Assembly: GCF_000011385.1 (NCBI RefSeq)
Contig: NC_005125.1
Location: 1,674,001 to 1,738,000, forward strand
DNA length: 64,000 nucleotides
Direction of reading: 5' to 3'
DNA from: Gloeobacter violaceus PCC 7421
GTDB lineage: Bacteria; Cyanobacteriota; Cyanobacteriia; Gloeobacterales; Gloeobacteraceae
Of the stretch, positions 3,158 to 26,553 are shown piece by piece. Each line of letters starts with the position of its first letter. The stretch's first letter is position 1. A model generated the notes under the pieces. It had not been told where the DNA came from, did not search any database, and saw nothing but the letters and a program-made list of their open reading frames with translations. Both the position numbers and the translations under genes were made by a program.

Positions 3158-4678
3158 TCAACTGGCCAGGGCCACCGGCCGCTCCTCGGCACCGAAGTGT
3201 TCGATAAGCAGCCCCTTGAGCACGGCGGCCAATTCGTCGCAAGGCACACCTTCGCGCACCACTTCGCCGAAACGGGCCTCCCGTCCCACCTGACCGCCCA
3301 TCAGAATGTCCACTGCATCGACGCTCTGTCCGGCCACTTTGGTGCGGGTGCCGATCAGGCCGATATCACCGATTTGCGGCTGGCCGCAGGAGTTGGGACA
3401 ACCCGACCAGTGGATACGCACAGGCTGGGGCAGATCCAGTTCGCTTGCAAGGACATGGGCGAGCTTCAGGGCGCGCTCCTTAGTCTCGATGATGGCCAGG
3501 TTGCAAAACTGCGCCCCCGTGCAGGAGACCAGACCGCGCAGCAGCGGATTCGGTTCGGGGGAAAACACTGCCAGCAGGGGCTCGACCAGCAGGGCCTCCA
3601 GCTTCTCCTCGGCGACGTGGGGGATCAAAAAGCTCTGCTCGACGGTAAGGCGCACTTCGCCCTGACCGTAAACCTCGGCGAGGTCGGCCACTTCGAGCGC
3701 CTGGTGCGCCCACAGCCGGCCGATGGGCACATGCAGGCCGACAAAGCAGTAGCCCGCCTGTTTCTGGGGCCAGACACCGACGTGGTCGCGCTTGTCGTAA
3801 TCGATAAATTCTTCGTGGGCGGCAGGCGGGAGCGCAAAGCCCAGGTCGGCTTCGACGGCGGCCCGAAACTTCGAGATCCCCCAGTCTTCGAGCAAGTAGA
3901 TAAGCCGGGCGCGGGTGCGCGCCTCGCGCGGGCCATGGTCGCTGTAGATGCGCAAGACGGCCGCGCACAGCGGCGCCACCTGCTCAGGAAGCACAAACGC
4001 ATCGAGCGGGAGCGCCGGGGTGGCGCGCTGGGAATTGAGCACCCCGCCCACCAGCACGTTGAAGCCGATGCGTTCCTCCCGGCGCGCCGGAATAAAACCG
4101 ATGTCGTTGATTTCGGCGTGGGCCGAGTTCTCGCGGTCGCCGGTGATCGAAATATTGAACTTGCGCGGCAGGTTGCTGAAGGCGAAACTGCCCCGGCCGC
4201 CCTCGGTGATCAGATCTTGCATTTGCTGCACCAACGGGCGCACATCGATGAGTTCGTCAGGATCGATGCCCGCCACCGGGGAGCCCACGATGTTGCGCAC
4301 GTTGTCCATGCCCGATTGCACCGTGGTCAACCCCACCGCCTCAAGGCGCTCCTGGATAGATACGCTGTCCTCGATGCGCAATCCACGCATCTCGAGATTC
4401 TGGCGGGTGGTGATATCCAGTTGCTTGACGTCCGAGAATTCCGCAAGAATCCCCCCAACTACCCGCAACTGCTCGCTGCTCAAGATCCCCCCCGGTACGC
4501 GCAGACGCACCATCCAGCGGCCCGGCGTCTTCTTGCGGAAGAACCAGCCGATCCACTTCAGCCGCTCCAGATCGCCCTTGGAAATCGCCTCCCACCCGAG
4601 ACGGGCAAATTCGATCAGCTCGGCCTTGACGGCAAGACCGGGTTTTTCATCCTTGATTTTTTCGATCGGGTTTGCCAC
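3158..4678 (-). CDS. nirA: Ferredoxin-nitrite reductase
   Basis: A 506-residue protein that catalyses six-electron reduction of nitrite to ammonium with reduced ferredoxin in the cytoplasm. GTG 4678 is chosen, because GGAAGG lies 6 bases upstream and the family usually begins close to this point. An upstream in-frame GTG at 4714 would add 12 unlikely residues. Siroheme/[4Fe-4S] ligands are visible as Cys386 and Cys392 (SCTGAQFC) and Cys427 and Cys431 (SGCPNSC). The ferredoxin-type nitrite/sulfite reductase repeats are complete (TTRQNLEMRG, DNVRNIVGSPVAG). The gene is divergent from ntcB-cnaT. Its upstream region carries the NtcA-like box and palindrome described separately. Confidence 0.97.
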   Translation of the reverse strand: MANPIEKIKDEKPGLAVKAELIEFARLGWEAISKGDLERLKWIGWFFRKKTPGRWMVRLRVPGGILSSEQLRVVGGILAEFSDVKQLDITTRQNLEMRGLRIEDSVSIQERLEAVGLTTVQSGMDNVRNIVGSPVAGIDPDELIDVRPLVQQMQDLITEGGRGSFAFSNLPRKFNISITGDRENSAHAEINDIGFIPARREERIGFNVLVGGVLNSQRATPALPLDAFVLPEQVAPLCAAVLRIYSDHGPREARTRARLIYLLEDWGISKFRAAVEADLGFALPPAAHEEFIDYDKRDHVGVWPQKQAGYCFVGLHVPIGRLWAHQALEVADLAEVYGQGEVRLTVEQSFLIPHVAEEKLEALLVEPLLAVFSPEPNPLLRGLVSCTGAQFCNLAIIETKERALKLAHVLASELDLPQPVRIHWSGCPNSCGQPQIGDIGLIGTRTKVAGQSVDAVDILMGGQVGREARFGEVVREGVPCDELAAVLKGLLIEHFGAEERPVALAS

Positions 4679-4740
4679 AGCACCTTCCAGACAATAACGG
4701 CAGCTCCTTTCCACAGAAGCGGTCCCGGGCGCAACAAAAT

Positions 4741-4754
4741 GTGCCCGTCTCTAC
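4741..4754 (-). promoter_or_regulatory. Degenerate NtcA box (GTA-N8-CAC) upstream of nirA
   Basis: On the minus strand the sequence reads GTAGAGACGGGCAC, which is GTA-N8-CAC, one mismatch from the NtcA consensus GTA-N8-TAC. Exactly 22 bases downstream is the hexamer TTCTGT (plus-strand 4713-4718), which fits the position of a TAN3T -10 box with one mismatch. The same degenerate box with the same spacings occurs before nrtA, which supports function. NtcA is the cyanobacterial CRP-family nitrogen regulator. Binding here is inferred. Confidence 0.6.
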
Positions 4755-4779
4755 AAAAATTGCCAACCGAAAACCAACG

Positions 4780-4796
4780 GTTATTGAGTCAATAAC
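4780..4796. promoter_or_regulatory. 17-bp palindrome, candidate LysR/NtcB operator for nirA (and ntcB)
   Basis: GTTATTGAGTCAATAAC is a perfect inverted repeat around a central base and contains a symmetric T-N11-A LysR-family motif. It lies between divergent nirA and the LysR gene. Its edge is 25 bp from the nirA NtcA-like box and its centre is 110 bp from the nirA start codon. A near-identical GTTAT-N7-ATAAC element lies at 12533-12549 before nrtA with the same distances. The adjacent LysR protein is the obvious candidate ligand. Confidence 0.65.
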
Positions 4797-4845: not shown

Positions 4846-4887
4846 GTAACCCCAGATACATTCGTGGCCGTGCGGGCCGGATATGGT
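4846..4887 (+). promoter_or_regulatory. NtcA-activated promoter of ntcB-cnaT
   Basis: GTA (4846-4848), 8 bases, TAC (4857-4859), 22 bases, then TATGGT (4882-4887). This matches the complete canonical NtcA-activated promoter structure GTA-N8-TAC-N22-TAN3T with no mismatch in the defined positions. The predicted transcript start is near 4894. Translation of the LysR gene should therefore begin at or after about 4900, which argues against the upstream in-frame GTG at 4864. Confidence 0.8.
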
Positions 4888-4923
4888 CTGATGCACGGAG
4901 TGACTAACGGTTGGGGTTCCGGG

Positions 4924-5871
4924 TTGGATTCAAGGCAGCTGCAGTACTTTTTGGCATTGAATCATTGCGGCAGTTTCAGGCTTGCCGCCGAGCAGTGTGG
5001 CGTTTCCCAGCCAGGGCTCAGCAAGCAGATCATGGCTCTCGAAGGCGAGCTTGGGGGACCGTTGTTCGACCGTACCGGTCGGCGGGCATCCCTCACACCC
5101 TTGGGCGAATGCTTTTTGCCTTACGCCCGCCGCGCCTACAAAGAACTCGAACAGTCCCGTGCCGCCATCGGCGAGTTGTTGAAGCCCGATCGGGGCGAAA
5201 TTTGCATCGCCGGGCTGCACTCGGTCAACGCCTATTTGCTGCCGGCGCTACTGGCGGTTTTTCGGCAGAAGCATCCCGGTACGCAGCTGCGCCTCACCTC
5301 GCTGGGTTCTGAGCGCATCATCAAGGTGCTGCTCGACCGGTTGGTGGATGCGGCCATTTTGATGGGGCCGGTCCATTCGCCGGAACTGGTGAGCACGCCG
5401 CTCTACGAAGAAGAGCTGGTTGTGCTGCTCCCGGCGCACCACCCGCTCGCGCGCCGTCCGAGCGTGCGGCTTGCGGAGGTGGCGATCCTGCCGCAGGTGG
5501 TCTTCCGCGACGGGTACGCCATGCGCACCGCCCTGGTGCAGCACTTTCGCGCCATCGGCGCCACGGTCGATGTGGCTGTCGAACTGAATACCCTCGAAGC
5601 GTTCAAAGAAATGGTCCGTCAGGAAGTGGGGGTGGCGATCCTGCCGCTGTGCGCCGTGCAGCACCTGGGGACGGATTTGGTCATCGCCCGCCTCGAGGAG
5701 CCCTCGATCACCCGGCGCGTCGAACTGGTCTGCCGCAAGGACAACTACCAGGTGCCCGTGGTGGCGGCCTTTACGCGCCTGGTGGCCGAGCACCTGCCCA
5801 CCGCCTTCGCCCGCTGGGTCCACACCGGCCCCGAACCCTGGCTGCGCGAAGCTTCGTACCTGGCGGGCTGA
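4924..5871 (+). CDS. ntcB: LysR-family nitrate-assimilation activator NtcB
   Basis: About 315 residues from TTG 4924, which gives the usual LysR beginning (DSRQLQYFLALNHCGSF). ATG 4891 and GTG 4900 are in-frame alternatives. The predicted NtcA transcript start near 4894 makes the far-upstream GTG 4864 unlikely. The N-terminal winged helix-turn-helix (LAAEQCGVSQPGLSKQI) is followed by a typical effector-binding domain. NtcB is the pathway-specific LysR activator of cyanobacterial nitrate genes. Identification rests on position (divergent from nirA, followed by cnaT) plus family, not on a diagnostic residue. Its TGA overlaps the cnaT ATG. Confidence 0.8.
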   Translation: MDSRQLQYFLALNHCGSFRLAAEQCGVSQPGLSKQIMALEGELGGPLFDRTGRRASLTPLGECFLPYARRAYKELEQSRAAIGELLKPDRGEICIAGLHSVNAYLLPALLAVFRQKHPGTQLRLTSLGSERIIKVLLDRLVDAAILMGPVHSPELVSTPLYEEELVVLLPAHHPLARRPSVRLAEVAILPQVVFRDGYAMRTALVQHFRAIGATVDVAVELNTLEAFKEMVRQEVGVAILPLCAVQHLGTDLVIARLEEPSITRRVELVCRKDNYQVPVVAAFTRLVAEHLPTAFARWVHTGPEPWLREASYLAG

Positions 5872-6908
5872 TGAGCACGGCCTTTCGCGAATTCGTCAAA
5901 AAAATCGGCTCTGGTCGCCTCACCGGCCGCGACCTCACCCGTGAAGAATCCTGCCGGGCGATGGCGATGCTGTTGCACCAGGAAGCCACCCCGACGCAGA
6001 TCGGTGCTTTTTTGATCGCCCACCGCATCAAGCGCCCGACCCCGGAAGAACTGGCGGGCATCCTCGACGCCTTTGATCAAGTGGCAAGACCGCTGACGGT
6101 CCCGGCGGACGCCCCACCGCCGCTGGTGCTGAGCAGCCCCTACGACGGCCAGGACCGCCTCGCCAACGTCACACCGCTTGCAGCCTTGATTGTCAGTGCC
6201 CTGGGCCAGGGGGTGGTGCTGCACGGCAGCACCGACATGCCCCCCAAGCACGGCCTCACCAGCTTCGACCTGCTGGCAGGTCTGGGGGTGGACCTGAAGC
6301 GCGACCGGCAAATCCTCAGCGAGCAGTACCGGGCGACAGGTCTGGGCTGGGTGTACCTGCCCGCCCATTTTCCTGAGGCATTTGCTTTGCAGGCTTTTCG
6401 CGACGAGATCGGCAAGCGTCCGCCGGTGGCCACCGCTGAACTTTTCTGGAACCCGGTCGGCGTGGGTCTGCCGGTGATCGGCTACACCCACCGCGAGACG
6501 ATCACCCTGGCGGTCCAGACCGCGCCGCTTCGGGGTGCGACCGCGATGGTCATGGTGCGGGGTCTGCAGGGCTCGGTCAACTGCACGCTGTTTCATCCCA
6601 ATCTCGGGGTGCGCTGGACGGCGGCGATGGATACCCCCGAACCGTTTCGCATCCTGGCAAGCGACCACGGCCTGGGGGACGACGATCTGTCTCTGGTGGG
6701 CGACGGCCAAGATCTCGAACGCCAGTCCGGTCTGTGCCTGGAGACCCTCCAGGGCAAGGACACCCCCCTGCGTCGGGCGACGATCTTCAACAGCGCCTTT
6801 TTGCTGGTCCAATCCGGCCACAGCGCTTCGCTCGAGACAGCAATTCCGCTTGCCGCCCGGGCGCTCGACGAAGGGCTCGCCTGGCGGCAACTCGAAAAGC
6901 TGCGCTAG
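5871..6908 (+). CDS. cnaT: CnaT: anthranilate phosphoribosyltransferase-like regulator of nitrate genes
   Basis: 345 residues. The ATG shares a base with the ntcB stop (TGATG), so the two are translationally coupled. The fold is glycosyltransferase family 3, as in TrpD: an N-terminal helical domain (EESCRAMAMLLHQEATPTQIGA) and a phosphoribosyl-binding type core (VVLHGSTDMPPKHGLTSFD). The TrpD glycine-rich GTGGD motif is not evident, so anthranilate activity is doubtful. In Anabaena the ntcB-adjacent gene cnaT encodes such a protein and is needed for expression of the nir operon (established knowledge). The ntcB-cnaT order and the shared NtcA promoter here match that case. The biochemical role is unknown. 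Confidence 0.8.
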   Translation: MSTAFREFVKKIGSGRLTGRDLTREESCRAMAMLLHQEATPTQIGAFLIAHRIKRPTPEELAGILDAFDQVARPLTVPADAPPPLVLSSPYDGQDRLANVTPLAALIVSALGQGVVLHGSTDMPPKHGLTSFDLLAGLGVDLKRDRQILSEQYRATGLGWVYLPAHFPEAFALQAFRDEIGKRPPVATAELFWNPVGVGLPVIGYTHRETITLAVQTAPLRGATAMVMVRGLQGSVNCTLFHPNLGVRWTAAMDTPEPFRILASDHGLGDDDLSLVGDGQDLERQSGLCLETLQGKDTPLRRATIFNSAFLLVQSGHSASLETAIPLAARALDEGLAWRQLEKLR

Positions 6909-12414: not shown

Positions 12415-12532
12415 TACAAGCCGGCAGGGCGCGGCCCTTCCCGCTTTTGCGCACTAAAGATTTTCTAGAAGACACATCTTTGTGCCTCCAGCCGCCAAGC
12501 AGGGCCGACATCCCTGACGGGCATTCCATGTG

Positions 12533-12549
12533 GTTATCGGCTTGATAAC
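12533..12549. promoter_or_regulatory. GTTAT-N7-ATAAC palindrome, candidate NtcB operator for nrtA
   Basis: GTTATCGGCTTGATAAC has the same 17-bp length and identical 5-base arms as the nirA palindrome at 4780-4796, and it keeps the symmetric T-N11-A LysR motif. Its centre is 110 bp upstream of the nrtA ATG, and its edge is 25 bp from the NtcA-like box. Both distances equal those at nirA. Confidence 0.65.
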
Positions 12550-12574: not shown

Positions 12575-12616
12575 GTATCAGAAAACACGATTAGGCCGCG
12601 GTACAGCGTGTTTCCT
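12575..12616 (+). promoter_or_regulatory. Degenerate NtcA-type promoter of the nrt operon
   Basis: GTA (12575-12577), 8 bases, CAC (12586-12588), 22 bases, then TTTCCT (12611-12616) at the -10 position. It has one mismatch to GTA-N8-TAC and one to TAN3T, and both mismatches are the same as at nirA. It is embedded in a GTGT-N8-ACAC dyad. It is likely weaker than the perfect site of ntcB, which would make the co-activator necessary. Confidence 0.6.
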
Positions 12617-12650
12617 GATGTAAACAAAGGCCAGATTGCAGACTTCCGCC

Positions 12651-13934
12651 ATGCCCGAAGATTCCGCCCAGTTCACGCTCACCCGCCGCGGCTTGCTCCA
12701 GGCAGCCGCGGCGGCCACGGTCGGTTCGCTGCTGACCCCCGGTTATGTGGGGGCGGCCGACGCCCCTGAGACCACCAAGGCCCGGCTTGGATTTATTTCG
12801 CTCAGCGACTGCGCGCCGCTGGTGATCGCCAAAGAAAAAGGTCTGTTCGACAAATACGGCATGAAGGACGTCGAGGTCGCCAAGCAGGCGTCGTGGGGGG
12901 TGACCCGCGACAACCTCGAACTGGGTGCCGGGGGCGGCGGTATCGACGGCGCCCACATCCTCACGCCGATGGTGTATCTGATTGCCAACGGCAACATCAC
13001 CAAAGGCAGTAAGAAAGTGCCGATGTTCATCCTGGCCAGGCTCAACGTCAACGGCCAGGGCATCTCGGTGGCCAACAAATATAAGCTCCTCAAGGTGGGC
13101 CTCGACGCCGCGCCGATGAAGGCAGAAGCGCTCAAGGCCAAAGCCAACGGCGATCCGATTACCGTCGCTCAGACTTTCCCGGGGGGCACCCACTGGGCGT
13201 GGCTGCGCTACTGGCTCGCCGCTGGCGGCATCGACCCGGAGACCGACGTCAAGATGATCACCGTGCCGCCCCCGCAGATGGTGGCCAACATGAAGACCGG
13301 CGTCACCGACGCTTTTTGCGTGGGCGAGCCGTGGCACCAGCAGCTCATCAACCAGCAGATCGGCTACACGGCGGTGACCACCGGCCAAATCTGGAACCGC
13401 CACCCGGAAAAATCCTTTGCCCTGCGCGCCGACTACGTCGAGAAATATCCGAAGGCGACAAAAGCGCTGTTGATGGCGGTGCAGGAGGCCCAGATCTGGG
13501 CCGACAAGGCCGAGAACAAGGACGAACTGGCCCAGGTTGTCAGCAAGCGCAGCTGGATAGGCGCCCCGGTCTCCGACATCGTGGCGCGCTACAAGGGCAT
13601 CATCGACTACGGCGACGGTCGGCCGGTGGAGCGCAACAGCCCCCACATCATGCAGTTCTGGAAAGATTTTGCTTCTTACCCTTATCAGAGCCACGATCTG
13701 TGGTTTTTGACCGAGGACATCCGCTGGGGCGTCCTGCCCGCGACCACCGACACCAAAAAGCTGGTGGCGGCGGTCAACCGCGAGGATCTCTGGCGCGAGG
13801 CGGCCAAGGCCCTGGGCCAGCCGGCTCCCAAAGGCACCTCCCGGGGTGTCGAAAAATTCTTCGACGGCGTCGCCTTCGACCCGACCAAGCCGGAAGCGTA
13901 CCTCAAGAGCGTCAAGCTCAAGAAACTGGCCTGA
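12651..13934 (+). CDS. nrtA: Nitrate ABC transporter substrate-binding protein
   Basis: 427 residues from ATG 12651; TTG 12636 is a possible alternative. The protein binds nitrate/nitrite outside the cytoplasmic membrane and delivers it to NrtB. The leader carries a twin-arginine motif (LTRRGLLQAAAAATVG, Arg12-Arg13). The mature part has NrtA/CmpA family blocks: LGFISLSDCAPLVIAKEKGLF, TFPGGTHWAWLRYWLAAGGI, VPPPQMVANMKTGVTDAFCV and GEPWHQQLI. It is the first gene of nrtABCD-narB-globin, 32 bases before nrtB. A bicarbonate (CmpA) role is a possible paralogue function, but narB in the operon makes nitrate far more likely. Confidence 0.95.
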   Translation: MPEDSAQFTLTRRGLLQAAAAATVGSLLTPGYVGAADAPETTKARLGFISLSDCAPLVIAKEKGLFDKYGMKDVEVAKQASWGVTRDNLELGAGGGGIDGAHILTPMVYLIANGNITKGSKKVPMFILARLNVNGQGISVANKYKLLKVGLDAAPMKAEALKAKANGDPITVAQTFPGGTHWAWLRYWLAAGGIDPETDVKMITVPPPQMVANMKTGVTDAFCVGEPWHQQLINQQIGYTAVTTGQIWNRHPEKSFALRADYVEKYPKATKALLMAVQEAQIWADKAENKDELAQVVSKRSWIGAPVSDIVARYKGIIDYGDGRPVERNSPHIMQFWKDFASYPYQSHDLWFLTEDIRWGVLPATTDTKKLVAAVNREDLWREAAKALGQPAPKGTSRGVEKFFDGVAFDPTKPEAYLKSVKLKKLA

Positions 13935-13966: not shown

Positions 13967-14812
13967 ATGACGACGACAAACGAGACGGCCATCGCCCCGG
14001 CGCGGGGCGAAGCAGCCGGAACCAGTCCCCAGGTGAAAGCTTTGCTGGAGCGCAGCAGCACCGTAGTACTGCCGCTGATCGCGGTGGCGATATTTTTGGG
14101 CATCTGGCAGGGCCTCAGTGCGGCGGGGCTTACCGGCACGCTGCCGGGGCCGCTGCAGGTGGTCCAGGACGTGCAGCCGCTGATTACGGGCTTTTTTAAC
14201 AACAGCGAGAACGACGTCGGTATTGCCTGGCAACTGGCTGCCTCGCTGCAGCGCGTGGCAATTGGCTACACCCTGGCGGCGGTGGTCGGTGTCTCAGTGG
14301 GCATTTTGATGGGTTCGATGCGGTCCTTCCAGCTGGCCCTCGACCCGATCTTTCAGGTGTTGCGCACGATCCCACCCCTGGCGTGGCTGCCGATTGCCCT
14401 GGCGGCCCTCAGCCAGGCGAACCCGAGCGCGATTTTCGTCATCTTCATCACCGCCGTCTGGCCGATTATCATCAACACCGCCGTCGGCGTGCGCTCAACC
14501 CCCCAGGACTACCGCAACGTCGCTAGCGTCCTGAAGCTTTCAAAACCCACTTACTTCTTTCAGATCTTGCTACCTTCGGCGGCTTCTTATATCTTTACGG
14601 GGCTGCGCATCGCCGTCGGTCTCGCCTGGCTGGCGATTGTCGCCGCCGAGATGCTCACCGGCGGCGTCGGCATCGGCTTTTTTATCTGGGATTCTTATAA
14701 CAGCTCGCGCATGGCCGACATCATCCTGGCGGTGCTGTGCGTCGGGCTGGTGGGCTTTGTCCTGGATCGGATGATCTACTACGCCGGCCGCCTGCTGGTC
14801 GCTTCGGAGTAA
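13967..14812 (+). CDS. nrtB: Nitrate ABC transporter permease
   Basis: 281 residues with about six transmembrane helices (for example VVLPLIAVAIFLGIWQGLSA, VAIGYTLAAVVGVSVGILMG, AIFVIFITAVWPIIINTAVG). The EAA-loop region characteristic of permeases docking to the ATPase is visible around YRNVASVLKLSKPTYFFQIL. It forms the membrane channel for nitrate with the NrtC/NrtD ATPases. It follows nrtA by 32 bases and ends 6 bases before nrtC, consistent with one transcript. Confidence 0.95.
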   Translation: MTTTNETAIAPARGEAAGTSPQVKALLERSSTVVLPLIAVAIFLGIWQGLSAAGLTGTLPGPLQVVQDVQPLITGFFNNSENDVGIAWQLAASLQRVAIGYTLAAVVGVSVGILMGSMRSFQLALDPIFQVLRTIPPLAWLPIALAALSQANPSAIFVIFITAVWPIIINTAVGVRSTPQDYRNVASVLKLSKPTYFFQILLPSAASYIFTGLRIAVGLAWLAIVAAEMLTGGVGIGFFIWDSYNSSRMADIILAVLCVGLVGFVLDRMIYYAGRLLVASE

Positions 14813-14818
14813 ACACAA

Positions 14819-16786
14819 ATGGCCTTTCTTGAAGTTCAGAACGCGGGCAAGACCTTTACCGCTCGGGACGGCTCGCCCTACGAAGCGCTCAAAAACGTCA
14901 ATCTGCAGATCCAGCAGGGCGAATTCGTCTCGATCATCGGCCACTCCGGCTGCGGCAAATCGACGCTGCTGAACCTGATTGCCGGGTTGGGGCTGGTCAC
15001 CGCCGGCCGGGTGGTGGTGGACGGCGTGGCGGTGAGCGGCCCCGGGCCGGACCGGATGGTCGCCTTTCAGAACCATTCGCTGTTGCCGTGGCTCACCGTG
15101 CGCCAGAATATCGCCCTCGCGGTCAAGGCTGTGCACAAACAAATCGACGAAGCCGCCCGCGGGCGGATTGTCGAAGAGCACCTGGAGATGGTGAGCCTGC
15201 GCGCCGCCGCCGACAAAAAGCCCGGCCAGATCTCAGGCGGCATGCGCCAGCGGGTCGGGATCGCCCGGGCGCTTGCCACCCGGCCGAAGGTGCTGCTGCT
15301 CGATGAACCCTTCGGGGCCCTCGACGCGCTGACGCGCGGACGATTGCAGGAGCAGCTGCTCAAGATCTGGGAAGCCCACCGGATCACGGTGGTGATGGTC
15401 ACCCACGACGTCGAAGAAGCGCTCCTGCTCTCCGATCGAATCGTGATGATGAGCAACGGTCCGGCGGCGAAAGTCGCCGAGTTGATGACGGTCGAATTGC
15501 CCCGGCCGCGCACGCGCATGGAGGTGATCAACAACCCCCACTACTACCGCCAGCGCAACGAGCTTCTGTATTTTCTCAACAAGGCCAAAAAAGCCGCCCA
15601 GGGCGCACCCGTCAGAACTCCCGCCACTACATCATCCGGCGGCAATCTGGAAAAGACCGCCCTCGCGGTCGGTTTCGTGCCCCTTTCCGATTGTGCGCCG
15701 CTGGTGATTGCCCAGGAGAAGGGCTTTTTTGCCCACCACGGTCTCGAAGTGAGCCTTTCGCGCGAGCCCAGTTGGAAGGCGGTCCTCGAAGGACTGGTCG
15801 AAGAACGCCTCGATGCCGCCCAGATCGTCGCCCCGATGGCCTTCGCCGGGATGCTGGGCGGCGCCGGTGTGCCCCTGGTGGCTTCGCTGGACCTCACCCG
15901 CAACGGCAACGCCGTCACCCTGCACCGTCGCTACTGGGATCAAGGCGTGCGCGACCGCGAGGGCTTCGCCCGCCTCGTCAAAAGCGGGGGGGACGGGCGG
16001 CGTCCCGTGCTGGGCGTCGTCCACGCCACCTCGATGCACAACTTACTGTTGCGCCACTGGCTTGCGGAAGTGGGCATCGACCCGGACAAGGACGTGGATC
16101 TGATCGTCATCCCACCGCCGCAGATGGTGGCCAATCTGCAGGCGGGCAACATCGACGGCTACTGCACGGGCGAGCCGTGGAATGCCCGCGCCGTCCACGA
16201 GGGGCTCGGTTTTGTGCCCGCCACCAGCCTCGATCTGTGGTCCGGCCACCTCGAAAAAGTGCTGGGCGTGCGCGCAGCCTGGGCCGCGGCTCACCCGAAG
16301 ACGCACCTGGCGCTGGTCAAAGCCCTCATCGAAGCCTGCCGCTACGCGGCGGACCCGGCCCACCGCGAGGAGGTCATCCGCCTGGTCTGCGCTAAAAATT
16401 ACGTCAACGCCGACCCTGCCTACGCCGCGATGGGGCTTTCGGGCAACTACGACCGCGGCTTCGGGGCACCTGAGCGCCTCGAAGGCTTCAACCGCTTCGA
16501 CGGCTGGAGCGCCAATCCCACCGAAAGGCTGTGGATCCTCACCCAGTTGGCCCGCTGGGGACTGCTCACCTCCCTTCCGGTTAACTGGCGCACCGCCATC
16601 GACCGCGTCTGGCGCGACGAGCCCGCCCGCGAAGCTTGCGCCCAACTGGGCATCGCAGCGCCGCCCGAGCCGGTCTACCGGCCCCTGACCCTGCCCGGGG
16701 GCGACACGCTCGAGCCCGACGACCCGACTGCCTATATCGAACGCTTCGCCATTCGCAAGTCCGCCCGCTCGCTCAATGCCGTCTAA
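14819..16786 (+). CDS. nrtC: Nitrate ABC transporter ATPase with NrtA-like C-terminal domain
   Basis: 655 residues. Residues 1 to about 255 are an ABC ATPase: Walker [10 protein letters not shown] (41-49), Q-loop AFQNHSLLPW, signature ISGGMRQRVGIARAL, Walker [13 protein letters not shown]. After a linker, residues from about 280 to the end repeat the NrtA substrate-binding fold (VGFVPLSDCAPLVIAQEKGF, PPPQMVANLQAGNIDGYC). This fusion is standard for cyanobacterial NrtC, where the C-terminal domain mediates inhibition of uptake by ammonium. All ATPase motifs are intact. It is separated from nrtB by 6 bases and from nrtD by 14. Confidence 0.96.
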   Translation: MAFLEVQNAGKTFTARDGSPYEALKNVNLQIQQGEFVSIIGHSGCGKSTLLNLIAGLGLVTAGRVVVDGVAVSGPGPDRMVAFQNHSLLPWLTVRQNIALAVKAVHKQIDEAARGRIVEEHLEMVSLRAAADKKPGQISGGMRQRVGIARALATRPKVLLLDEPFGALDALTRGRLQEQLLKIWEAHRITVVMVTHDVEEALLLSDRIVMMSNGPAAKVAELMTVELPRPRTRMEVINNPHYYRQRNELLYFLNKAKKAAQGAPVRTPATTSSGGNLEKTALAVGFVPLSDCAPLVIAQEKGFFAHHGLEVSLSREPSWKAVLEGLVEERLDAAQIVAPMAFAGMLGGAGVPLVASLDLTRNGNAVTLHRRYWDQGVRDREGFARLVKSGGDGRRPVLGVVHATSMHNLLLRHWLAEVGIDPDKDVDLIVIPPPQMVANLQAGNIDGYCTGEPWNARAVHEGLGFVPATSLDLWSGHLEKVLGVRAAWAAAHPKTHLALVKALIEACRYAADPAHREEVIRLVCAKNYVNADPAYAAMGLSGNYDRGFGAPERLEGFNRFDGWSANPTERLWILTQLARWGLLTSLPVNWRTAIDRVWRDEPAREACAQLGIAAPPEPVYRPLTLPGGDTLEPDDPTAYIERFAIRKSARSLNAV

Positions 16787-16800
16787 CCCTACCCGCCACC

Positions 16801-17598
16801 ATGATTCAGCCCTTTCTCGAATTGAGCTATATCTCGAAGATCTTCCCGACGCCCAAGGGGCCGTTCGTGGCCCTCAAAGACGTCGCCCTCAAAATCCGCA
16901 AAGGCGAATTTATCGCCCTATTGGGCCACTCCGGCTGCGGCAAATCGACTTTGCTCAACATCGTGGCGGGCCTCAGCAAGGCCAGCGCGGGCGGGGTGAT
17001 CCTCGAAGGCAAAGAAACCGACGAACCCGGCCCCGACCGGATGGTCGTCTTTCAGAACTACGCGCTGCTGCCGTGGCTCACCGCCTACGAGAATGTCCAT
17101 CTGGCGGTGCGCTCGACAATGCCCGGCGCGCCCGAAAGCGAAAAGCGTTCGGTGGTCGAGCGCTACCTGGCCCTGGTCGGCCTTGGCGGCAAGGCCGACA
17201 AGCGACCGGGGGAGATTTCGGGCGGCCAGAAGCAGCGCGTCGCCATCGCCCGGGCGCTTGCCACTCGGCCGAAGGTGCTGCTCTTGGATGAACCCTTCGG
17301 TGCCCTCGATGCGCTGACGCGCGAGGAGATGCAGGAGGAAGTGCTCAAGATCTGGGAAGCCGACCGCACCACCGTGCTGATGATCACCCACGAGATCGAC
17401 GAAGCGATCTTGATGGCCGACCGGATCGTGATGATGACCAACGGCCCCGCCGCCACGATCGGCGAAGTTTTCGAAGTTCCCTTCGACAGGCCGCGCTCGC
17501 GCGCCGAGATCCTCGAAGACCCGGCCTACTACACCCTCAGAAACCGCATCCTCGAATTTCTCTACGACCGCTTTGGAGAACCCGTCCTTGCCGACTGA
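16801..17598 (+). CDS. nrtD: Nitrate ABC transporter ATPase
   Basis: 265 residues from ATG 16801, where the conserved family N-terminus begins. Upstream codons in frame belong to the end of nrtC. It is a single ABC ATPase: Walker [10 protein letters not shown] (42-50), signature [15 protein letters not shown], Walker [13 protein letters not shown]. It pairs with NrtC to energise NrtB and lacks the NrtC regulatory extension. Its last 11 bases overlap the narB start, so narB translation is probably coupled. Confidence 0.95.
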
Positions 17599-19666
17599 CA
17601 CCCTGGCCAAAACTCTGTGTCCTTACTGCGGTGTGGGCTGTGGCCTGGAGGTGACCGCGGATGCGCGCGTGCGCGGCGACCGCGCCCATCCCTCCACTCT
17701 GGGCATGGTCTGCGTCAAAGGGGCGACGGTGCTCGAATCGATCGGCAAAGATCGCCTGCTCTACCCGATGGTGCGCGCTCGCCTCGATGAACCTTTCAGG
17801 CAAGCCAGTTGGGAAGAAGCGCTCGCTCTGGTGGTCGGGAGGTTGCGCGCCGCTTCCCCGGAGAGCCTGTGCTTCTACGGCTCCGGGCAGTTTGTCACAG
17901 AAGACTATTACGTCGCCCAGAAGCTCTTCAAAGGCTGCCTGGGAAGCAATCATATCGACGCCAACTCGCGACTTTGCATGTCTTCGGCGGTGTCGGGTTA
18001 CCTACAGAGCCTGGGTAGCGACGGCCCGCCCGCCTGCTACGACGATCTCGATCTGACCGATTGCGCCTTTTTGGTGGGCACCAACACCGCCGAGTGCCAC
18101 CCGGTGCTCTTCAACCGCCTGCTCAAACATCGCAAGCAAGACCTCAATTCCCGGCTGGTGGTGGTCGATCCGCGCGCCACGCCCACCGCCAAGGCGGCGG
18201 ATCTGCACCTGGCCATCCGACCGGGCAGCGACATCGATCTATTCAACGGCATCGCCCACCTGATCTTGCAGTGGGATCGCGCCGACCAGCGCTTTATCGG
18301 CGCCCACACCCAGGGATTCGCGGCAATGGCCGAGGTGGTGCGCCACTACCCGCCCGAGGCGGTCGCCCGCCGCTGCGGGATCACTACCGCGGCCCTGGAA
18401 CTGGCCGCGCGCCTGTGGGTAAATTCGGCGCGCGTCCTTTCGCTCTGGTCGATGGGCATCAATCAGTCGATCGAAGGCACCGCCAAGGTGCGCGCCCTCA
18501 TCAACTTGCACCTGCTCACCGCTCAGATCGGTCGGCCCGGATCGGGACCCTTCTCGCTCACCGGCCAGCCCAACGCCATGGGCGGGCGCGAGGCCGGCGG
18601 ATTGTCGCAATTGCTGCCGGGTTACCGCAGCGTCGCAGACCCCGATCACCGCCGGCAAGTCGAAGAACACTGGCAGTTGCCGTCCGGCAGCATCGCGGCG
18701 CGGCCGGGGCGCACCGCCTGGGAGATGATCGAGGCGCTGGAGGCGGGCGCAGTCGAAGTCTTCTGGATCGCCGCCACCAACCCGGCGGTGAGCCTGCCGG
18801 ATCTGGAGCGCACCAAGGCCGCCCTGCTGCGCTCGCCCTTTACGGTCTACCAGGACTGCTACTATCCGACCGAGACGGCCCGCTACGCCCACGTGTTGCT
18901 GCCTGCCACCCAGTGGAGCGAAAAGACCGGCACGATGACCAATTCCGAGCGCCGCGTCACCCTCTGCCCGGCTTTTCACCCTCCCCCGGGCGAGGCGCGC
19001 GACGACTGGCAAATTTTTGCCGAGGTCGGCCGCCGTCTGGGCTTCGCCGAGCAGTTCGCCTTTGCCGACGCCGCGGCGGTGTTTGCCGAATTTGCCGCCC
19101 TCACCCGGGGGCGCCCCTGCGAGATGACCGGCATCTCCCACGCCCGCCTGGAGCGCGAGGGACCGTTGCAGTGGCCCTGCCCGGCGGGTTCGGCGGGCAC
19201 AGCGCGGCTTTACACCGATTGGCGCTTTGCGACACCCGATGCGCGCGCCCGCTTCGCCGCCTGCCACGCCCGGGGCCTCGCCGAACCCCCCGACCCCGAG
19301 TATCCCTTTGTGCTCATCAACGGCCGTCTCTACGGCCACTGGCACACCCTGACACGCACCGGCCGCATCGAGAAACTGCTCAACCTGTACCCTGAGCCGT
19401 TCATCGAAATCCACCCCCGCGACGCGGGCAAACTCGGTCTCGGCGAAGGCGACTGGGTCGAGGTGCGCTCGCGCCGGGGCGCTATCCGCCTGCCGGCCCG
19501 CCTCACCCTGGCGGTAGCACCGGGCACGGTCTTTGTGCCGATGCACTGGGGGGCGCTCTGGGCGGAGGCGGCCGAGGTCAACGCCCTCACCCACCCCGAA
19601 TCAGATCCGATTTCGGGTCAACCGGAAGTCAAAAGTTGTGCAGTACAGCTTTCGGCGCTGCCTTGA
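17588..19666 (+). CDS. narB: Ferredoxin-nitrate reductase (assimilatory)
   Basis: 692 residues from TTG 17588, chosen because GGAGA lies 8 bases upstream; TTG 17573 is an in-frame alternative. The enzyme reduces nitrate to nitrite in the cytoplasm using ferredoxin, with a bis-MGD molybdenum cofactor. The N-terminal [4Fe-4S] ligands are Cys11, Cys14, Cys18 (CPYCGVGC) and Cys42 (GMVCVKG). The predicted molybdenum-ligand cysteine is Cys130 in ANSRLCMSS. Further MGD-binding blocks include [10 protein letters not shown] and [14 protein letters not shown]. It is slightly shorter than many cyanobacterial NarB proteins but complete. It overlaps nrtD by 11 bases and lies 35 bases before a globin gene. 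Confidence 0.96.
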
Positions 19667-26477: not shown

Positions 26478-26525
26478 GGCGGCTCTCAGGCAGATAAAAG
26501 CGTAGTGGTTTATACACCGTTATCC

Positions 26526-26531
26526 ATTATA
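26526..26531 (-). promoter_or_regulatory. Candidate -10 box for the SDR-folE-dciA unit
   Basis: The minus strand reads TATAAT, about 50 bases upstream of the SDR start. No clear -35 element is visible at the expected distance. It lies in an AT-rich patch that stands out from the GC-rich surroundings. Confidence 0.4.
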
Positions 26532-26553
26532 GAACGATAAGACCGGTCGCACT

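Follow-up and report, generated by a model that had tools for sequence, protein, structure and literature searches.

The nitrite reductase gene nirA and the nrtABCD-narB operon of Gloeobacter violaceus PCC 7421 are preceded by the same palindrome, GTTAT-N7-ATAAC, at the same distance from an NtcA box, and this palindrome is probably (about three chances in four for the explanation as a whole) a Gloeobacterales variant of the NtcB operator, rather than another kind of site, from which NtcB would activate both units together with NtcA as an AND gate. Co-activation by NtcB and NtcA is already known, while the operator variant, its common register, its covariation with residue 30 of NtcB and a conserved -10 sequence that departs from TAN3T provisionally appear, older key papers aside, to be new details. 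All positions given below refer to the window, the whole 64-kb stretch of the genome that was analysed.

Re-reading of the two promoters confirmed the coordinates that the first-pass annotation had given for the palindromes, the GTA-N8-CAC boxes and the TTN3T hexamers (Table 1), as well as its statement that the spacings are identical: at both nirA and nrtA the palindrome is followed after 25 bp by GTA-N8-CAC and after 22 bp more by TTN3T. When the whole 4,659,019-bp single-contig genome was searched, exactly two copies of GTTAT-N7-ATAAC were found, one in each of these upstream regions; the expected number per genome is about 0.76, and an independent-base model gives a probability of about 2e-9 that each of the two 300-bp upstream regions contains one. 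The composite of palindrome and NtcA box, sought genome-wide with up to three mismatches, gave two sites above background, nirA and nrtA only; the remaining matches all carry three mismatches, as in a reversed control, and no random copies with the matching spacing were found. Elsewhere in the window (26502-26535), a symmetric NtcA-like box, GTAGTGGTTTATAC, lies beside GTTATCCATTATAGAAC, which matches the palindrome with one mismatch; both are placed between minus-strand genes, namely a short-chain dehydrogenase-like ORF and another ORF.

Table 1. Genes and promoter features of the nitrate-assimilation loci, in window positions.
Feature	Position	Strand	Remarks
nirA	3158-4678	-	ferredoxin-nitrite reductase; NCBIfam PRK09566 above cut-off
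nirA -10 position, TTCTGT	4713-4718	-	not TAN3T; predicted transcript start ~4706
nirA NtcA box, GTAGAGACGGGCAC	4741-4754	-	TGT-N10-ACA kept
nirA palindrome, GTTATTGACTCAATAAC	4780-4796	-	inner half-sites 2 and 3; putative NtcB operator
ntcB canonical NtcA box, GTAACCCCAGATAC	4846-4859	+	conserved in G001, G002, G003, G006 and G007
ntcB canonical -10, TATGGT (TAN3T)	4882-4887	+	22 bp past the NtcA box; predicted start ~4894
ntcB	4921-5871	+	LysR-type regulator, HTH_1 and LysR_substrate; recognition helix SQPGLSKQ; putative TTG start at 4921
cnaT-like gene	5871-6908	+	Glycos_trans_3N and Glycos_transf_3; directly 3' of ntcB as in most cyanobacteria
nrtA weak half-site 1, ATTCC	12523-12527	+	AT at -51/-50 conserved in the order
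nrtA palindrome, GTTATCGGCTTGATAAC	12533-12549	+	inner half-sites 2 and 3; putative NtcB operator
nrtA NtcA box, GTATCAGAAAACAC	12575-12588	+	
nrtA conserved element over the -10 position, CGTGTTTCCTG	12607-12617	+	hexamer TTTCCT at 12611-12616; predicted transcript start ~12623
nrtA	12651-13934	+	nitrate ABC transporter substrate-binding protein; first gene of nrtABCD-narB
nrtB	13967-14812	+	permease, from operon position and translation
nrtC	14819-16786	+	NCBIfam ntrCD above cut-off
nrtD ORF	16636-17598	+	true start inside the ORF
narB	17573-19666	+	assimilatory nitrate reductase; NasC/NasA model matches; true start maybe further in

The predicted nirA transcript start was placed by the -41.5 rule for class II NtcA-activated promoters, in which the box is centred at that distance from the transcript start (PMC3898017). 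One gene in the genome scores above the cut-off for NtcA. A globin-domain gene (Pfam PF00042; 19699-20109, plus strand) directly follows narB and has a possible link to nitric oxide handling.

The LysR-type gene beside nirA is the NtcB ortholog as judged by an identity gap, a tree and the adjacency of cnaT, which gives a name to the adjacent LysR protein of the first-pass annotation. Most cyanobacteria have one counterpart per genome at 39-47% identity, while paralogs reach at most 34%; in the picocyanobacterial family f4 the same identity comparison found no counterpart. In a tree of 69 proteins, the copies of Gloeobacterales and of other cyanobacteria form sister clades, and their joint clade stands apart from the paralogs with support of 99/96. 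The protein contains both domains of the family (HTH_1 and LysR_substrate), cnaT adjoins ntcB in 46/48 loci, and the Gloeobacter neighbourhood matches what is expected of NtcB, with cnaT 3' of ntcB and nirA divergent or near. In Anabaena, ntcB and cnaT lie side by side, and nir expression requires both.

The search for this arrangement in relatives covered six genomes in the family and nine in the order, among them Aphanocapsa lilacina HA4352-LM1 (G002), ES-bin-313 (G005) and Candidatus Cyanaurora vandensis (G007); a single contig scan gave three Gloeobacterales and three remote loci only. The spacing between palindrome and NtcA box is conserved across Gloeobacterales: counted from the first base of the palindrome to the TGT in the box, it measures 41 bp for nirA and nrtA of G000-G003, G006 and G007, and 42 bp for nirA of G008. 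The distal triplet of the box is CAC in 7/12 and TAC in 5/12 distinct promoters of the order. The first-pass annotation had also counted as part of the layout the 110 bp from the palindrome centre to the start codon, at nirA (GTG 4678) and at nrtA (ATG 12651) alike; in the relatives this distance is mostly about 102-120 bp and reaches 244 bp at nirA of G008, and therefore the agreement seen in G. violaceus is not part of what is conserved. The palindrome of G005 is incomplete (ATGCA...CGTAT...ATGCG). In G004, nirA lacks the palindrome and has a canonical NtcA promoter, and orthologs of ntcB and cnaT were looked for in this genome and not found; the G004 assembly, a fragmented MAG with 93% completeness and 8% contamination, is the single case of NtcB absence in the order.

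In other cyanobacteria, a search for GTTAT-N7-ATAAC near NtcA boxes gave no common spacing, and the search was consequently moved to the ATGC array. Repeats of the ATGCA-N5-TGCAT type are presumably the known NtcB site, on which the original papers are reportedly Maeda 1998 and Aichi 2001. An initial class-wide alignment, selected on the NtcA box and TAN3T, was circular for both, and the nirA upstream regions were instead selected on ATGC/GCAT half-sites alone, at offsets 0, 11, 22 and 33, with a score of at least 12 of 16. A four-half-site array was found in 83/93 of the other nirA upstream regions, against 6/505 shuffles and 0/8 genomes without NtcB, and a perfect GTA-N8-TAC stands exactly at +51 in 67/83 of the array regions, although the box played no part in their selection. 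The half-sites thus lie at -51, -40, -29 and -18 relative to the NtcA box, and on this scale the Gloeobacter palindrome corresponds to half-sites 2 and 3 (-40 and -29). Its reading as a variant NtcB operator follows from this occupation of the two inner positions of a common 11-bp register. The earlier claim that the palindrome differs from the known NtcB motif therefore holds for its letters (TTAT/ATAA instead of GCAT/ATGC) but not for its place. ATGC is kept by G005 and in half-site 1 of several relatives.

The palindrome could also be a single NtcB dimer site shifted by one helical turn (T-N11-A centred at -33 from the NtcA box), instead of the inner pair left from an ancestral array of four half-sites. 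A shifted dimer site is possible, if rather doubtful: TTAT-N7-ATAA holds a T-N11-A of its own, and half-site 4 (-18), sought in the Gloeobacter promoters, was not recognisable, but most promoters of the order retain the AT of half-site 1 (-51/-50; A in 9/12, T in 10/12), ATGCA stands at half-site 1 in G005, G006 and G008, and three f18 genomes have intermediate operators, in which GTTAT takes the place of half-site 2 while the rest of the ATGC array is normal.

With kinship ignored, TAN3T at 21-24 bp from the NtcA box is present in 0/16 Gloeobacterales nirA/nrtA promoters of genomes with NtcB versus 72/83 elsewhere, and a perfect GTA-N8-TAC in 3/16 versus 68/83; the nirA and nrtA boxes in the window both have CAC as distal triplet and so do not belong to the perfect kind. 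The proposal that box and -10 are weakened alike is thus borne out for the -10, non-canonical in all 16 NtcB-linked copies, but only in part for the box, perfect in three of them. Nor is the -10 simply weakened as had been supposed: the replacing sequence is itself conserved, CGTGTTTCCTG being present in most copies at 33-43 from the box, at nirA and nrtA and in several genera, and mere weakening does not explain this. The strong conservation of a non-consensus sequence at a fixed place could mean that CGTGTTTCCTG is a dedicated core promoter element, read by an alternative sigma factor or a third regulator, instead of a weakened sigma-70 -10; this is unlikely, given that it lies exactly at the TAN3T position of other nirA promoters, and that GCGTGTTTYYTG has only two genomic copies outside nrtA, of which one falls within the very beginning of a coding region and neither has a suitably placed NtcA box. 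Because of the same scarcity, the idea that the -10 element is a promoter motif of general use in Gloeobacter was rejected. Only tentatively can it be suggested that CGTGTTTCCTG would be a conserved non-TATA core element, dedicated to the Gloeobacterales nitrate promoters and opened by NtcB and NtcA solely in combination, with the operator and NtcB residues 30-31 having coevolved across cyanobacteria. Over the nrtA -10 and predicted start (12610-12627, plus strand), an imperfect inverted repeat, TGTTTCCTGATGTAAACA, is present in the Gloeobacter genus only.

The promoter of ntcB itself (4846-4887, plus strand), to which the first-pass annotation of these upstream regions made no reference, is of the canonical form, with GTA-N8-TAC-N22-TAN3T in 6/8 genomes of the order. 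Taken together, the non-TAN3T -10 and the canonical promoters of ntcB and of G004 nirA fit promoters that may have been made dependent on a second activator.

The recognition helix of NtcB varies along with the operator. In BenM and CbnR, it is the residue at position 30 that makes contact with the T-N11-A thymine (PMC12609908). NtcB proteins with Ser30 go with ATGC half-sites (base 3 is G in 107 and A in 3, counts of the listed commonest half-sites), while with Pro30 outside Gloeobacterales base 3 is A in 32 and G in 16; the half-sites counted are not independent of one another, kinship is ignored, and some rows of this covariation table were transcribed by hand. Pro30 is accompanied by ATAC in two families and in a single genome from another, and by ATAA in Gloeobacterales, which carry Gly31 too. 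Short of binding, this covariation is the best evidence that NtcB would read the palindrome. It is very improbable that the palindrome instead serves a different regulator, or that it is a terminator or has a structural role with no connection to NtcB: its letters are unlike ATGC/GCAT and NtcB binding is argued from sequence comparison, but it sits in the NtcB array register, covaries with NtcB residue 30, and is missing from G004, as ntcB is. The palindrome is not followed by a T-run, and its position upstream of the predicted starts was the ground for rejecting it as a terminator or hairpin.

In the mechanism favoured here, that of an NtcB operator acting with NtcA, nitrogen limitation would most likely lead NtcA to activate ntcB through its canonical NtcA-only promoter. 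NtcB, a LysR-type activator thought to respond to nitrite, would then bind the half-site array in its 11-bp register, of which the inner pair TTAT-N7-ATAA may have become the strong part in Gloeobacter, with NtcA on the adjacent box at -41.5; the two proteins would jointly recruit RNA polymerase and open a promoter in which the TA of TAN3T is absent from the -10. The AND gate, a coherent feed-forward arrangement in which NtcA would first raise NtcB and both would then be needed at nirA and nrtABCD-narB, is suggested because ntcB has a canonical NtcA-only promoter. NtcB is required for nir expression in Anabaena (PMC3898017, PMC7699953) and is nitrite-responsive in Synechocystis (PMC5318462), and the title of Frias 2000, as cited in PMC3898017, states that Anabaena nir expression requires both NtcA and NtcB. 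For the co-dependent NtcA/NtcB promoter pair of the first-pass annotation, the pair is unique in the genome and conserved in relatives, and its co-dependence we infer. The part of NtcB is supported by G004, where nirA without the palindrome has a canonical promoter in a genome without ntcB and cnaT. What counts against this explanation is that the -10 is more conserved than weakening alone predicts, that the G005 palindrome is incomplete, that half-site 4 is unrecognisable in Gloeobacter and that G004 is a single MAG.

The nirA (nir) promoters of Anabaena PCC 7120, Synechococcus PCC 7942 and Synechocystis PCC 6803 have, as in Gloeobacter, an orthologous LysR co-activator, an NtcA box at the class II position with the operator directly upstream in matching register, and an ntcB gene under NtcA (PMC3898017, PMC7699953, PMC5318462). 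They differ in that the Gloeobacter half-sites are TTAT/ATAA, not GCAT/ATGC, with the inner pair dominant, that TAN3T is absent and the NtcA box usually imperfect, and that nirA and nrtABCD-narB form two units, each with its own promoter. Compared with the canonical class II NtcA promoter, the Gloeobacter nirA and nrtA promoters share GTA-N8-(T/C)AC about 22 bp before a -10 hexamer, but their -10 has no TA and they carry a second operator, whereas ntcB of the same genome is of the canonical kind. Across cyanobacteria, operator letters, recognition-helix residues of NtcB and -10 strength vary in step at an unchanged spacing, a natural series in which LysR DNA specificity and the origin of two-activator dependence would be directly testable in the earliest-branching cyanobacteria.
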